Assembly (NCBI RefSeq): GCF_002979455.1
Contig: NZ_PCOU01000004.1
Span: 62,001-126,000, forward strand
DNA from: Chryseobacterium sp. MYb7
Lineage (GTDB): Bacteria > Bacteroidota > Bacteroidia > Flavobacteriales > Weeksellaceae
Direction: 5' to 3'
Length of the DNA: 64,000 bases
The translations under genes were made by a program, and so were the position numbers. This document shows, one piece after another, positions 4,133 through 8,045 of the stretch. Within the stretch, counting starts at the first letter, position 1; every line of letters starts with the position of its first letter. The notes under the pieces are model-generated. The model was not told the DNA's origin. It saw nothing but the letters and a program-made list of their open reading frames with translations, and did no database searches.

Positions 4133-4164
4133 AAATCCCGAAGCAATTCGGGATTTGTTTTTTT
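4133..4164 (+). terminator. Rho-independent terminator of the OmpA lipoprotein gene
   Basis: A 10-bp perfect stem, AAATCCCGAA (4133-4142) with TTCGGGATTT (4147-4156), has a 4-nt loop and is followed by a T-run. It ends at the stop codon of the convergent HTTM gene and may serve both directions. Confidence 0.85.
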
Positions 4165-5125
4165 ATGAACTGATCTGTTTCGGAATATAGTGAGTTGATA
4201 GTTTTTTCTTTGATGAGGTGACAGCCTTTTTAACGGGCTGTTCAAAATAAAAATTAGTGATATTCCATACAATCATAATGGCTGAAAAGTAGTATAAATT
4301 GAGGATGAGTGCAATTCCTATGTGCATAGAAATCGTTAGAAAAAGCCATGTTTTTTGTGTCGGTTTATACCAGATAATAATCGGATAGCACATTTCGATG
4401 AGAATTGTACTCCATCCGATGAGGCTTAAAATGTAAGAGTGTTCTATCAGCCAGCTGAAATCAATATTCAAATCTCTGTTAGAGTAGGGCAGATGAATGG
4501 CTTTCCAGATAGATTCTCCGTTCCACCAATTAAATCCTAATGCTTTATCCAATCCGGAAAAGAAATAAGCAATAGAAATATGAATCTGAAATAATCTTTT
4601 CACCGGAGTAATATTTATAGAGACGGGTTTTCTGTTGAAAATAAAATTTCTCAGTGAAAAATGCTGATCTGTTGGAAAAAGAATCAGATAGAATAAAGAC
4701 ATGCTTGTGAAAAAATCTGCACCATAAGCAAAGAAAGAACTTCCCTTAAGCAATGCAATCTGCAGGATAAGCAGCAACAATGCAGAAATTCTGGAATAAA
4801 ATCCGGTAATAATAAATACACACAGTACAATAAATGATACTTTGGTAATCATAATTGTTGTAGTTTCTTCAATTCCAAAAGTTTGTAAAAAGCTTACTAT
4901 TTTTGAGAACGTTATCAGCCAGTCTGGAGTGAAAACACTCATAATATCCTGTGGGATGATACTGTTGCTTGAAAATAATTTGTCAAAATCTGGCAATACT
5001 GCAGTAAACTGTAAGAGGATAACGATTCCTATGGCAACCCGGAAGAAGCTTAAGAATTCCGTTTGGTTATCCTGTTTGAAAAAGAAGTTTTCAATTTTGG
5101 TGTAGAATGTATTCAGCTTTTTCAT
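4163..5125 (-). CDS. HTTM-domain integral membrane protein (gamma-carboxylase-like / SdpB-like family)
   Basis: With the start at ATG 5125 the protein has 320 aa. This start lies 7 nt after the stop of the upstream gene; an earlier start would overlap that gene by about 100 nt. Several hydrophobic segments are evident (about residues 27-43, 92-108, 112-126, 137-150, and more after 205). The signature FSGLDKALGFNWWNGESIW at about residues 189-207 matches the HTTM family. Its lysine (K194) aligns with the catalytic lysine of vitamin K-dependent gamma-carboxylase. The family also includes SdpB of the Bacillus Sdp toxin system. It is the third gene of a minus-strand operon. Its substrate is unknown. 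Confidence 0.8.
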   Translation of the reverse strand: MKKLNTFYTKIENFFFKQDNQTEFLSFFRVAIGIVILLQFTAVLPDFDKLFSSNSIIPQDIMSVFTPDWLITFSKIVSFLQTFGIEETTTIMITKVSFIVLCVFIITGFYSRISALLLLILQIALLKGSSFFAYGADFFTSMSLFYLILFPTDQHFSLRNFIFNRKPVSINITPVKRLFQIHISIAYFFSGLDKALGFNWWNGESIWKAIHLPYSNRDLNIDFSWLIEHSYILSLIGWSTILIEMCYPIIIWYKPTQKTWLFLTISMHIGIALILNLYYFSAIMIVWNITNFYFEQPVKKAVTSSKKKLSTHYIPKQISS

Positions 5126-5132
5126 GGCTTTA

Positions 5133-5702
5133 TTATTTAAATTCATCAATGAGAATAAGGTTTTCATTCGTTTTTCCCTTTTTGAAATTGGCAATCGTAG
5201 GATAGTCATATAGATAAAGTTTGGTGGTGACACTGGCTGCTTTCGGATTCTCCTTCATGACATGTGCTGCAATCTGTCTGATAATAATATCCAGATATTG
5301 ATAGTACTTTTTGTCGTATTTATTCTTGTCAGAAAGTTTATCAAGGAACATATTAAAGACTGTGGTATATCTTACTCTGCTTTCTTTATTTTTAAAGTAT
5401 GGCAGATTTTTTTGTTCCAGAATTTTCCCATTTTGATCTTTTAATTCAAAGTTCATAACAAAGTCGCTGGCAACATTCGGTGCGTAGAAACCATATCCTG
5501 TATCAAAACCCGTGTAAGAAGTAAATATGTTGACAGGTTTTGACTCTGCAATATTCTCTGAAATCTTATAAAGCAGTGGCTTTTTATAGTCTTTGTTTTC
5601 ATAATAAAAACCATAATAACCATCAAATGTTCCTTTCAGACCAATGGTGAAAACCACCAGCAGGATCATGAAAATTCCGGATAACTGAAGCTTTCTTTTC
5701 AT
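5133..5702 (-). CDS. Membrane-anchored protein encoded with the HTTM protein
   Basis: The protein has 189 aa, with one hydrophobic segment at residues 8-24 acting as a signal anchor; the rest is probably extracytoplasmic. The stretch FDTGYGFYAPNVASDFVM is typical of proteins encoded beside HTTM membrane proteins in Bacteroidota, but I cannot name a function. It has no cysteines. It is the middle gene of the operon, 53 nt after the first gene across an attenuator-like hairpin and 7 nt before the HTTM gene. It could be a partner or folding factor of the HTTM enzyme. That role is inference from position only. Confidence 0.7.
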   Translation of the reverse strand: MKRKLQLSGIFMILLVVFTIGLKGTFDGYYGFYYENKDYKKPLLYKISENIAESKPVNIFTSYTGFDTGYGFYAPNVASDFVMNFELKDQNGKILEQKNLPYFKNKESRVRYTTVFNMFLDKLSDKNKYDKKYYQYLDIIIRQIAAHVMKENPKAASVTTKLYLYDYPTIANFKKGKTNENLILIDEFK

Positions 5703-5717
5703 GGCAAAAGATTTAAG

Positions 5718-5750
5718 AAAAGGCTGTCTTCGGACTAAAAACAGCCTTTT
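5718..5750 (-). terminator. Internal hairpin (attenuator-like) between operon genes 1 and 2
   Basis: A 10-bp perfect stem, AAAAGGCTGT (5718-5727) with ACAGCCTTTT (5741-5750), lies in the 53-nt gap. On the minus strand a T-rich tail follows. It probably ends part of the transcripts, so that the first gene is expressed more than the two behind it. Confidence 0.6.
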
Positions 5751-5754
5751 GTGG

Positions 5755-6348
5755 TTATTTATAATTCATCAATACACTGTTCAGTTTTACATTGATTCTT
5801 GGATCAATAGCTGTATTGACTTTGTAAGATTTTATGATCACATTGGTAAGATTTTTTCTTCCCATGGTTGGCGGACAGATGGTGTACTCTTCAGCGCCTC
5901 TTATCGTTAATTTACTTAAAGAGGCAATGTCCTTCTGGCTTAATAATGCTGCATTTGTAGCAACCTGGTTGTTTTGAATAGCATAATAATTGGCACCCAG
6001 TTCTTTAGCTCCGTATTTTTTCAGAATCCCTTCCACTTTTGCTCTCAGATCACCATATTTTGTCCAGTCGATGTTGGCTTTCATAAGACATCCGCGGATC
6101 ACATACTGTCTGTTGATTTTGTAAATAATAAAATTGGTCCCCAAACTGTTCTGGTGAAGTTTCTGCAGGCTTAATAAACTCTTCATGTCTTCATCAGAAA
6201 TTTTTTTTACATCTTTCAGAATGTAATTGTTGTCTACAATGTAATTGCCTTTTTCTTTATAAAAAGACATCTCCTGAGGCTTTAGTTGGGAAAAAATCAT
6301 AACAAGTCCCACTATAGCTCCAATTAATAATAAAGTCTTTGTTTTCAT
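5755..6348 (-). CDS. Exported protein of unknown function, first gene of the HTTM operon
   Basis: The protein has 197 aa with an N-terminal hydrophobic segment at residues 5-20. The remainder is soluble and has two cysteines, in IRGCLMKAN and EYTICPPTMG, which could form a disulfide outside the cytoplasm. I do not recognise the family. The gene leads the operon and is separated from the other two genes by a hairpin, the usual place for a gene needed in excess. It may be the substrate or partner of the downstream HTTM enzyme. It has no hydrophobic toxin core like SdpC. A -7 element, TACCTTTG, is at 6435-6442 on the minus strand. Confidence 0.65.
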   Translation of the reverse strand: MKTKTLLLIGAIVGLVMIFSQLKPQEMSFYKEKGNYIVDNNYILKDVKKISDEDMKSLLSLQKLHQNSLGTNFIIYKINRQYVIRGCLMKANIDWTKYGDLRAKVEGILKKYGAKELGANYYAIQNNQVATNAALLSQKDIASLSKLTIRGAEEYTICPPTMGRKNLTNVIIKSYKVNTAIDPRINVKLNSVLMNYK

Positions 6349-6434
6349 GTGGATGTTTTTAAAATATCCCTACTCTGTTTAGGATTTTCGGGTTCCTCCT
6401 TGATTTGAATGTTTCATGGTTGAAAAACTTATAT

Positions 6435-6702: not shown

Positions 6703-6858
6703 TCAAATTAATTCTTCCTTTTTCAGGAGCGAAATAATTCGTTGCAAAAATGAAGTGGATATTTCTTTCTTAGTTTTTGCTGCAGAAGCATCAGCTCTAC
6801 CTCTCGGTATGACTGTCTTGCGATTCTCATGGTTAGTTTGTGTCTCTCCTGCAATCAT
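6703..6858 (-). CDS. Candidate small basic protein, 51 aa
   Basis: An open minus-strand frame starts at ATG 6858 and ends in TGA, immediately followed by a strong terminator hairpin. The protein is rich in Lys, Arg, Thr and Ala in its first half (MIAGETQTNHENRK) and ends in an amphipathic helix-like FLQRIISLLKKEELI. The same frame stays open upstream for about 25 codons before the ATG but lacks a clear start there. I do not recognise it. It could instead be a non-coding RNA with a chance frame. The convincing part is the ORF-then-terminator layout in an otherwise empty region. Confidence 0.4.
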   Translation of the reverse strand: MIAGETQTNHENRKTVIPRGRADASAAKTKKEISTSFLQRIISLLKKEELI

Positions 6859-7013: not shown

Positions 7014-7042
7014 TTTGATTAATAAAAGAATATGTATATTTA
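7014..7042 (+). promoter_or_regulatory. Likely promoter of the cysteine-rich peptide gene
   Basis: TTTG at 7014-7017 and TATATTTA at 7035-7042, 17 nt apart, resemble the Bacteroidota TTTG / TAnnTTTG pair, with the last base of the -7 box off consensus. Confidence 0.45.
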
Positions 7043-7122
7043 AATCTCTGTAAAAGGAAATAAATAAAAAGAGATATCCGAAAATCTAAAGAGTAGGAAA
7101 TTAATACTAAACTAAAATTATT

Positions 7123-7278
7123 ATGAAAAATTTAAAAAAACTTTCAAGAGAAGCAATGAAAACTGTACAAGGTGCTATTAATGGGTGTAATCCACAGATA
7201 TTTTGTACTAGCCCACAAACAAAATGTTGCCCAGGATGGGTTTGTGCTGGTATAAGACAATATTGTATAGCCGTATAA
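7123..7278 (+). CDS. Bacteriocin-like peptide precursor with knottin cysteine pattern
   Basis: The precursor has 51 aa and is too short for most gene callers. Residues 1-18 (MKNLKKLSREAMKTVQGA) fit the double-glycine leader LSxExLxxIxGG, with a GA cleavage site after residue 18. Many Chryseobacterium peptides annotated as bacteriocin-like carry such a leader. The mature part has six cysteines at 22, 28, 35, 36, 41 and 48, giving C-x5-C-x6-CC-x4-C-x6-C, the spacing of inhibitor cystine knots. No C39 peptidase/ABC exporter or immunity gene is adjacent. A promoter lies upstream and a hairpin terminator downstream, so the gene is a stand-alone transcription unit. The leader is a good match; the knot fold is inference. 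Confidence 0.8.
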   Translation: MKNLKKLSREAMKTVQGAINGCNPQIFCTSPQTKCCPGWVCAGIRQYCIAV

Positions 7279-7308: not shown

Positions 7309-7334
7309 AAGAGAGATTAATTTCTCTCTTTTTT
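7309..7334 (+). terminator. Terminator of the cysteine-rich peptide gene
   Basis: An 8-bp stem, AAGAGAGA (7309-7316) with TCTCTCTT (7323-7330), a 6-nt loop and a T-run. Confidence 0.75.
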
Positions 7335-7397: not shown

Positions 7398-8045
7398 ATG
7401 AGTTTTTTTGAAGAAAAGAATCCTGAAATGGACAGATATTTGGAAGCACACGCTTCTTCGGAATCCGAAATTCTGAAAAAACTGAGAAGAGAGACTTACC
7501 AGAAGACGACACAGCCTCATATGATTTCCGGTTATCAGCAGGGAAGACTATTAACAATTATTTCCCAAATGCTGCAGCCGAAAAGTATTCTTGAAATAGG
7601 AACATTTACAGGATATGCTACCTTATGTCTTGCGTCAGGATTAGCAAAAGACGGAAAAATTACGACTCTGGATGTTAATGAAGATCTTGCCTATCTTCCA
7701 AAAAAATATTTTGAGTCAAGCGAATATGCCAGTCAGATTGATTTTAAACTTCAGGATGCCAAGGAATATTTAAAAGAAACGGATGAATTTTTTGACCTGA
7801 TTTTTGTAGATGCCGATAAAGAAAATTACGCCGAATATTTCAGGCTCATCAAACCCCATACAAAATCTGGATCCGTAATTATGTTCGATAATGTTTTGTG
7901 GTACGGAAAAGTATTGGAAGAAAACCCAAAGCTGAAATCTACCCAGTCTATACAGGAATTAAATGATTTGGCAGCAAAAGATGACGATTTTGAAAATCTT
8001 ATTCTACCTTTGCGTGATGGAGTCAACTTTCTGCGAAGAAAGTAA
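7398..8045 (+). CDS. SAM-dependent O-methyltransferase (family 3, catechol-type)
   Basis: The protein has 215 aa and is cytosolic. The SAM-binding motif I, ILEIGTFTGYATLCLA, is at about residues 64-79, the acidic TTLDVNEDL at about 89-97, and FDLIFVDADKENY at about 133-145. The block GSVIMFDNVLWYGKV is typical of the metal-dependent catechol/caffeoyl-CoA-type O-methyltransferases. The substrate cannot be told from sequence. The gene starts a run of plus-strand genes. Confidence 0.92.
   Translation: MSFFEEKNPEMDRYLEAHASSESEILKKLRRETYQKTTQPHMISGYQQGRLLTIISQMLQPKSILEIGTFTGYATLCLASGLAKDGKITTLDVNEDLAYLPKKYFESSEYASQIDFKLQDAKEYLKETDEFFDLIFVDADKENYAEYFRLIKPHTKSGSVIMFDNVLWYGKVLEENPKLKSTQSIQELNDLAAKDDDFENLILPLRDGVNFLRRK

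Follow-up and report, generated by a model that had tools for sequence, protein, structure and literature searches.

The bacteroidetocins are among the described systems closest to the one considered here; they kill Bacteroidales, and their loci carry a C39 ATP-binding cassette (ABC) transporter together with a thiol oxidoreductase (PMC6671954). The leaders handled by C39 exporters follow a consensus that includes L(−12), E(−8), hydrophobic residues at −7 and −4, and G(−2) (PMC6959990). Here we analyze one gene, at positions 7123–7278 of a 64,000-nucleotide (nt) stretch (the window) of contig NZ_PCOU01000004.1 from Chryseobacterium sp. MYb7, a bacterium of soil and water. The product of the gene joins a leader of this type to a six-cysteine core that resembles spider cystine-knot toxins. 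We consider it fairly probable that this product is the precursor of a knottin-like miniprotein that is secreted, and that the miniprotein is one of some 30 disulfide-rich peptides, encoded at scattered sites in the genome, which have a common leader and a shared exporter. A literature search on bacterial knottins, on "CCPGW" (with Chryseobacterium), and on DUF805 RNA found nothing on this peptide system.

Precursor and Core

The gene and the two parts of its product occupy the following positions in the window.

7123..7278, + strand: CCPGW-family precursor gene (NF047792 equivalog, 96.4 bits; cut-off 80)
7123..7176, + strand: double-glycine-type leader of 18 residues, with cleavage predicted after Gly-Ala (…VQGA)
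7177..7275, + strand: 33-residue predicted mature core with six cysteines, cystine-knot-like, cysteines invariant in orthologues

The open reading frame (ORF) of 51 amino acids (aa) translates to MKNLKKLSREAMKTVQGA (leader) followed by INGCNPQIFCTSPQTKCCPGWVCAGIRQYCIAV (core), and the original prediction, which gave a 33-residue core with the pattern C-x5-C-x6-CC-x4-C-x6-C, is exact on this translation. The gene is a member of a family already named in NCBIfam: NF047792, "CCPGW family putative bacteriocin", matches residues 1–51 above its curated 80-bit cut-off (E 6.8e-28), and the leader falls in NF047798. Genes above the NF047792 cut-off are present in 68 of the 321 genomes of the bacterial family (Weeksellaceae level), all 68 within one genus; a search for plasmid-borne spread gave 0 matches among 72,556 plasmid records.

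Loss of the six cysteines in homologues was what the original prediction had named as grounds for its own rejection; every orthologue that we compared keeps all six (46/46 distinct orthologues), with spacing of 5-5 or 5-6 and then 0-4-6, and the Gly-Ala junction is found in all of them. The core is under purifying selection. The ratio of nonsynonymous to synonymous substitution rates (dN/dS) is ∼0.12 among close orthologues of the long-loop subtype and ranges from 0.07 to 0.12 within subtypes, the lower values belonging to the short-loop subtype, in which synonymous sites are near saturation. A chance ORF is rejected on the NF047792 and NF047798 scores, the occurrence in 68 genomes, and the dN/dS of the core.

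The core alone matches the Pfam family Toxin_12 (PF07740, spider cystine-knot toxins) at 22.8 bits, above the gathering cut-off of 21, and this family is matched by 32/32 aligned cores at E 0.1 or better, with a best E of 2.5e-7. When the cysteine positions were kept and the other residues permuted, 0/6 shuffles matched Toxin_12; the peptide therefore has more than spacing in common with the spider toxins, and the idea that the match is an artefact of cysteine spacing is not supported. Together with the conserved cysteines, these results bear out the knottin-type framework that had been proposed for the peptide. A profile search of the sequences in the PDB returned neighbors that are mostly cystine-knot toxins and engineered knottins, with weak E-values.

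The AlphaFold2 model of the core, with a predicted local distance difference test (pLDDT) of 82.7 and a predicted template modeling score (pTM) of 0.45, contains two short strands at residues 21–23 and 29–32. Its structural neighbors are mostly spider cystine-knot toxins, whose template modeling (TM) scores reach 0.61, though with E-values above 2. Taken together, the sequence matches and the model suggest that the core likely has the knottin (cystine-knot) fold, and by similarity its disulfides would connect cysteines 1-4, 2-5, and 3-6. At a length of 33 residues, common ancestry with the animal toxins and convergence cannot be told apart. These bacterial sequences score above a threshold curated for spider toxins, and they offer a clear case for asking if knottins have arisen more than once.

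Leader and Related Precursors

The leader model NF047798 (leader_Chryseo) matches residues 1–18 at 41.3 bits, against a cut-off of 23.5, and the CCPGW leader fits the C39 consensus at L(−12), M(−7), V(−4), and G(−2), with a small Ala at −1. The double-glycine type to which the leader had been assigned is supported. We also observe that, in close orthologues, the synonymous rate (dS) is 0.08 for the leader codons (7123–7176) and 0.32 for the core (7177–7275), perhaps an effect of signals for translation start or of recombination between the leader copies.

Stretches that match leader_Chryseo above its cut-off number 32 in this genome. For the paralogue cores, 31 ORFs were taken by a leader pattern blind to core sequence. 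Six cysteines are present in 19 of these cores, four in 11, and five in 1; the number is even in 30/31 (p 1.5e-8), as it is in 189/198 distinct cores across all loci retrieved, orthologues included. The original prediction had described the gene as stand-alone, and this does not hold: the gene is one of 32 leader-sharing precursors, tied to one another by the leader, by an RNA element, and by a VKOR-C39 export locus.

A second knottin-type framework, C-x5-C-x4-CC-x3-C-x4-C, is found in a tandem array of short leader_Chryseo peptides (G000:C9:45254-46047; L005 1035-1828), and arrays with this framework occur in other species too (L119, L120, L127, L128, L144, and L156). The model of this second family is similar in quality to that of the CCPGW core, and its structural search returned one non-significant match, to a scorpion toxin. 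The CCPGW family is a catalogued one, and what is unexpected is its setting, in which a leader, a putative disulfide-forming export locus, and an RNA element tie together ∼30 small cysteine-rich genes. These leader-sharing genes are mostly unclustered and therefore escape cluster-based genome mining.

Probable Export and Oxidation Machinery

The original prediction noted that no transporter lies near the gene, which holds around the gene, and its contig has no C39 match. It also suggested that the genome be searched for C39-domain ABC exporters. Four strong C39-domain proteins were found, all exporter-sized ORFs, none of them on the contig of the peptide gene, and one is linked to a peptide of the leader_Chryseo type. 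The locus of this last exporter, on another contig, reads in order: a VKOR-thioredoxin (VKOR-Trx) fusion, the C39 ABC exporter (G000:C15:18826-21030), a six-Cys leader_Chryseo-type peptide, and an HlyD adaptor. The peptide is 64 aa long and its leader score, 20.9, is slightly under the cut-off of 23.5; the exporter has the C39 active-site stretch (DCGPTC) as well as a candidate His. In the loci of 13 other species, the VKOR fusion and the exporter flank a leader precursor.

The leader and VKOR-Trx were compared across the 321 genomes. Both occur in 171 and neither in 136, with VKOR only in 9 and leader only in 5; the Fisher p of 5e-72 ignores shared ancestry, and the counts within the genus are alike (159, 10, 3, and 1). 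The VKOR-Trx gene is present in 68/68 CCPGW genomes. The leader fit, the VKOR-C39-leader linkage, and the co-occurrence all agree with the processing in trans that was first suggested, and the prediction that the CCPGW peptide is exported and oxidized in trans can be called well supported.

Two of the other C39 exporters have precursors of their own type beside them. At the C12 exporter (L162 6835-10717), a cerein-7B-like class IIb bacteriocin precursor adjoins the C39 exporter and an HlyD adaptor. At the C31 exporter (L164 8256-13529) there are three near-identical 57-aa precursors with weak ATP-grasp (RimK/MvdD-like) and SPASM proteins, a set that looks like a graspetide cluster.

The DUF805b RNA Element

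Two copies of a cis-regulatory RNA lie in the window, the first of them in the 5′ untranslated region (UTR) of the peptide gene, where the original prediction overlooked it.

7068..7099, + strand: DUF805b, a cis-regulatory RNA (RF02914) of the 5′ UTR whose end lies 23 nt ahead of the start codon (41.9 bits against a gathering score of 35.6; E 1.3e-10)
6367..6401, − strand: second copy of DUF805b, ahead of the divergent SdpB-containing cassette and 18 nt upstream of where the 197-aa ORF starts (51.8 bits)

The genome has 22 DUF805b matches (L197–L218), 17 of them over the gathering score, and a start codon follows nearly every one at 17–24 nt downstream. The genes that follow comprise 12 with leader_Chryseo (11 besides CCPGW), 1 other double-glycine-type peptide, the 197-aa ORF, and, as the rest, other genes, including tail-collar-like and caspase-like ORFs that we named by eye. 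In a hand alignment, pairing of three positions ahead of GAAAA with three that follow GAGTA is seen in 20/20 copies and forms a covarying pseudoknot, one of whose pairs uses all four Watson–Crick types (permutation p 1e-5). This pseudoknot may or may not have been described already; the Rfam alignment as printed gives the nested stem only. The leader-peptide genes suggest a gene class for the DUF805b RNA, on which the literature search found no paper.

Genomic Neighborhood

The remaining features around the gene are as follows.

7035..7043, + strand: TATATTTAA box, likely the −7 promoter element of Bacteroidota type, near-invariant upstream in 19 syntenic loci
7309..7334, + strand: intrinsic terminator read in the sequence, AAGAGAGA-TTAATT-TCTCTCTT and then a T-run
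6703..6858, − strand: conserved 51-aa ORF, the constant upstream neighbor in 28/28 syntenic loci, with 0 family matches
7398..8045, + strand: O-methyltransferase (PF01596, E 1.2e-50), the constant housekeeping neighbor downstream in 28/28 loci
5755..6348, − strand: 197-aa ORF, first in the divergent cassette, with no NCBIfam match and no Pfam match above cut-off
5133..5702, − strand: 189-aa ORF at the SdpA position, with no family match of its own
4163..5233, − strand: weakly SdpB-like membrane protein (TIGR04033, E 4.1e-5, 23 bits; the cut-off, 178, is far above)

A promoter and a terminator belonging to the gene itself had been predicted, and both are backed by a comparison of 19 loci, in which the TATATTTAA box is near-invariant and the downstream hairpin and T-run persist in the majority. 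The gene occupies one chromosomal site in 28 Chryseobacterium loci (named genomes), with the 51-aa ORF upstream and the O-methyltransferase and an NlpC/P60 gene on the other side. Farther upstream the syntenic loci vary, and hold the SdpB-containing cassette, an ORF of ∼830 residues, or nothing. No recognized immunity gene is linked to the peptide gene in the 28 loci, where the constant neighbors are only the 51-aa ORF, the O-methyltransferase, and the NlpC/P60 protein. The 51-aa ORF (6703–6858, −) is a candidate immunity gene or regulator. A bacteroidetocin-type locus (C39 transporter, 5-TM protein, and thiol oxidoreductase) was not found at the CCPGW gene, whose neighbors are the SdpB cassette, the O-methyltransferase, and NlpC/P60.

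The divergent SdpB-containing cassette (4163–6348, −; three ORFs), which the original prediction missed, lies 0.8 kb upstream of the peptide gene. Its 197-aa ORF is present in 30/171 genus genomes, 27 of which also have the CCPGW gene. In one genome (G037) the cassette copy is split by two in-frame stops and the peptide gene is intact. As processing machinery for the peptide, the SDP cassette is rejected: it is found in only 27/68 CCPGW genomes, 3 genomes without CCPGW carry it, and one broken copy stands beside an intact peptide gene.

Proposed Mechanism and Alternatives

For the secreted knottin-like miniprotein that we favor, the gene would be transcribed from its own promoter, and the DUF805b RNA just before the start codon would set translation or the fate of the transcript. 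The leader would dock on the C39 domain of the shared ABC exporter and be cut after Gly-Ala, and the core would be exported with the HlyD adaptor; docking, cleavage, and export are assigned to the VKOR-linked exporter because of the leader fit, the gene linkage, and the co-occurrence. The VKOR-thioredoxin fusion of the exporter locus would then form the three disulfides in the periplasm, a role that its domains and its linkage suggest. The folded peptide may act outside the cell, most likely against competitors or predators, and this is the weakest step of the proposal.

Several observations weigh against this account. The full-length precursor, at 20.7 bits, falls just short of the Toxin_12 cut-off of 21, the pTM of the model is just 0.45, and the structural E-values are non-significant. 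The E(−8) of the strict consensus is missing from the CCPGW leader, which has Ala instead. Three other strong C39 exporters are present in the genome, so that the VKOR-linked one is assigned to the peptide only indirectly, and the co-occurrence counts behind it take no account of shared ancestry. A bacteriocin in an arms race would not usually show purifying selection or a strictly vertical synteny, and the expression, secretion, and activity of the CCPGW peptide are all predicted from sequence.

On a larger scale, we offer a plausible but tentative reading in which the peptides of Chryseobacterium make up a venom-like combinatorial system. In each genome, dozens of precursors without linkage to one another would carry the same conserved leader on divergent cores of four or six cysteines, at least two knottin-framework families among them. 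These would be exported and oxidized by a single C39 exporter with VKOR-thioredoxin and would be partly co-regulated by DUF805b, a pseudoknot RNA element that also stands on other secreted or antagonism-type genes.

As to function, an antibacterial action of the CCPGW peptide would come from the family label only, and because there is no recognizable immunity gene and the core is non-diversifying, the observations would be explained equally by an inhibitor or by a toxin directed against other organisms. A true bacteriocin that kills related bacteria as the bacteroidetocins do, with self-protection from an unlinked or a constant neighbor, is possible, though doubtful. Its leader type and C39 export would be those of the bacteroidetocins, which act on Bacteroidales (PMC6671954), the NCBIfam label reads "putative bacteriocin", and the neighboring weak-SdpB cassette carries the DUF805b element too. 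However, no recognized immunity gene travels with the CCPGW gene, the core is conserved (dN/dS near 0.1) at a fixed chromosomal site, and the SdpB cassette is present in 27/68 CCPGW genomes only.

Knottin frameworks are common among inhibitors, and a conserved, non-diversifying core would suit a constant target. A secreted knottin might thus inhibit an enzyme of competitors, hosts, or protozoa, for instance a protease or amylase, instead of acting as a membrane or channel toxin. The Squash-inhibitor family matches 3/32 cores weakly (best E 0.021) and the weak structural matches include an amylase-inhibitor peptide, but the Toxin_12 match is far better than the Squash match and no enzyme target is linked to the gene, and we judge this function unlikely. 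Some double-glycine peptides are signals. A signaling peptide for the producer's own population would account for a gene that has its own conserved RNA element and would need no immunity gene, but it is quite improbable given that the locus has no receptor or two-component system and that known signal peptides look different from this set, with its three disulfides and ∼30 divergent cores in each genome. A core modified by an enzyme, as in a ribosomally synthesized and post-translationally modified peptide (RiPP) such as a lanthipeptide, instead of a disulfide peptide, is highly improbable, as the weak lantibiotic-leader similarity (lant_SP_1948, E 0.025) is under cut-off and mostly within the leader, the Ser and Thr of the core are not conserved whereas its cysteines are, the linked catalyst is an oxidoreductase, and the paralogue cysteine numbers are even.

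Comparison with Known Systems

The CCPGW system resembles the bacteroidetocins in its short double-glycine leader, its disulfide-bonded core (predicted in our case), and the pairing of a thiol oxidoreductase with a C39 ABC transporter at one locus. Bacteroidetocins A and B, with four Cys (their relatives have at least two), belong to a four-gene cluster that includes the exporter (PMC6671954), whereas the CCPGW peptide has six Cys and an orphan gene, with its presumed exporter and oxidase on another contig. To the SDP system (SdpABC) the likeness consists of the weak-SdpB cassette beside the gene and the DUF805b element common to both; the difference is that no match was found between the peptide and SdpC and that most CCPGW genomes are without the cassette. 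Relative to the Toxin_12 family, the CCPGW peptide differs in being bacterial, in having a double-glycine leader in place of a signal peptide, and in showing no sign of ion-channel action, whereas it resembles the spider toxins in its cysteine framework, in sequence similarity that goes beyond spacing, and in a predicted fold that is nearest to theirs.
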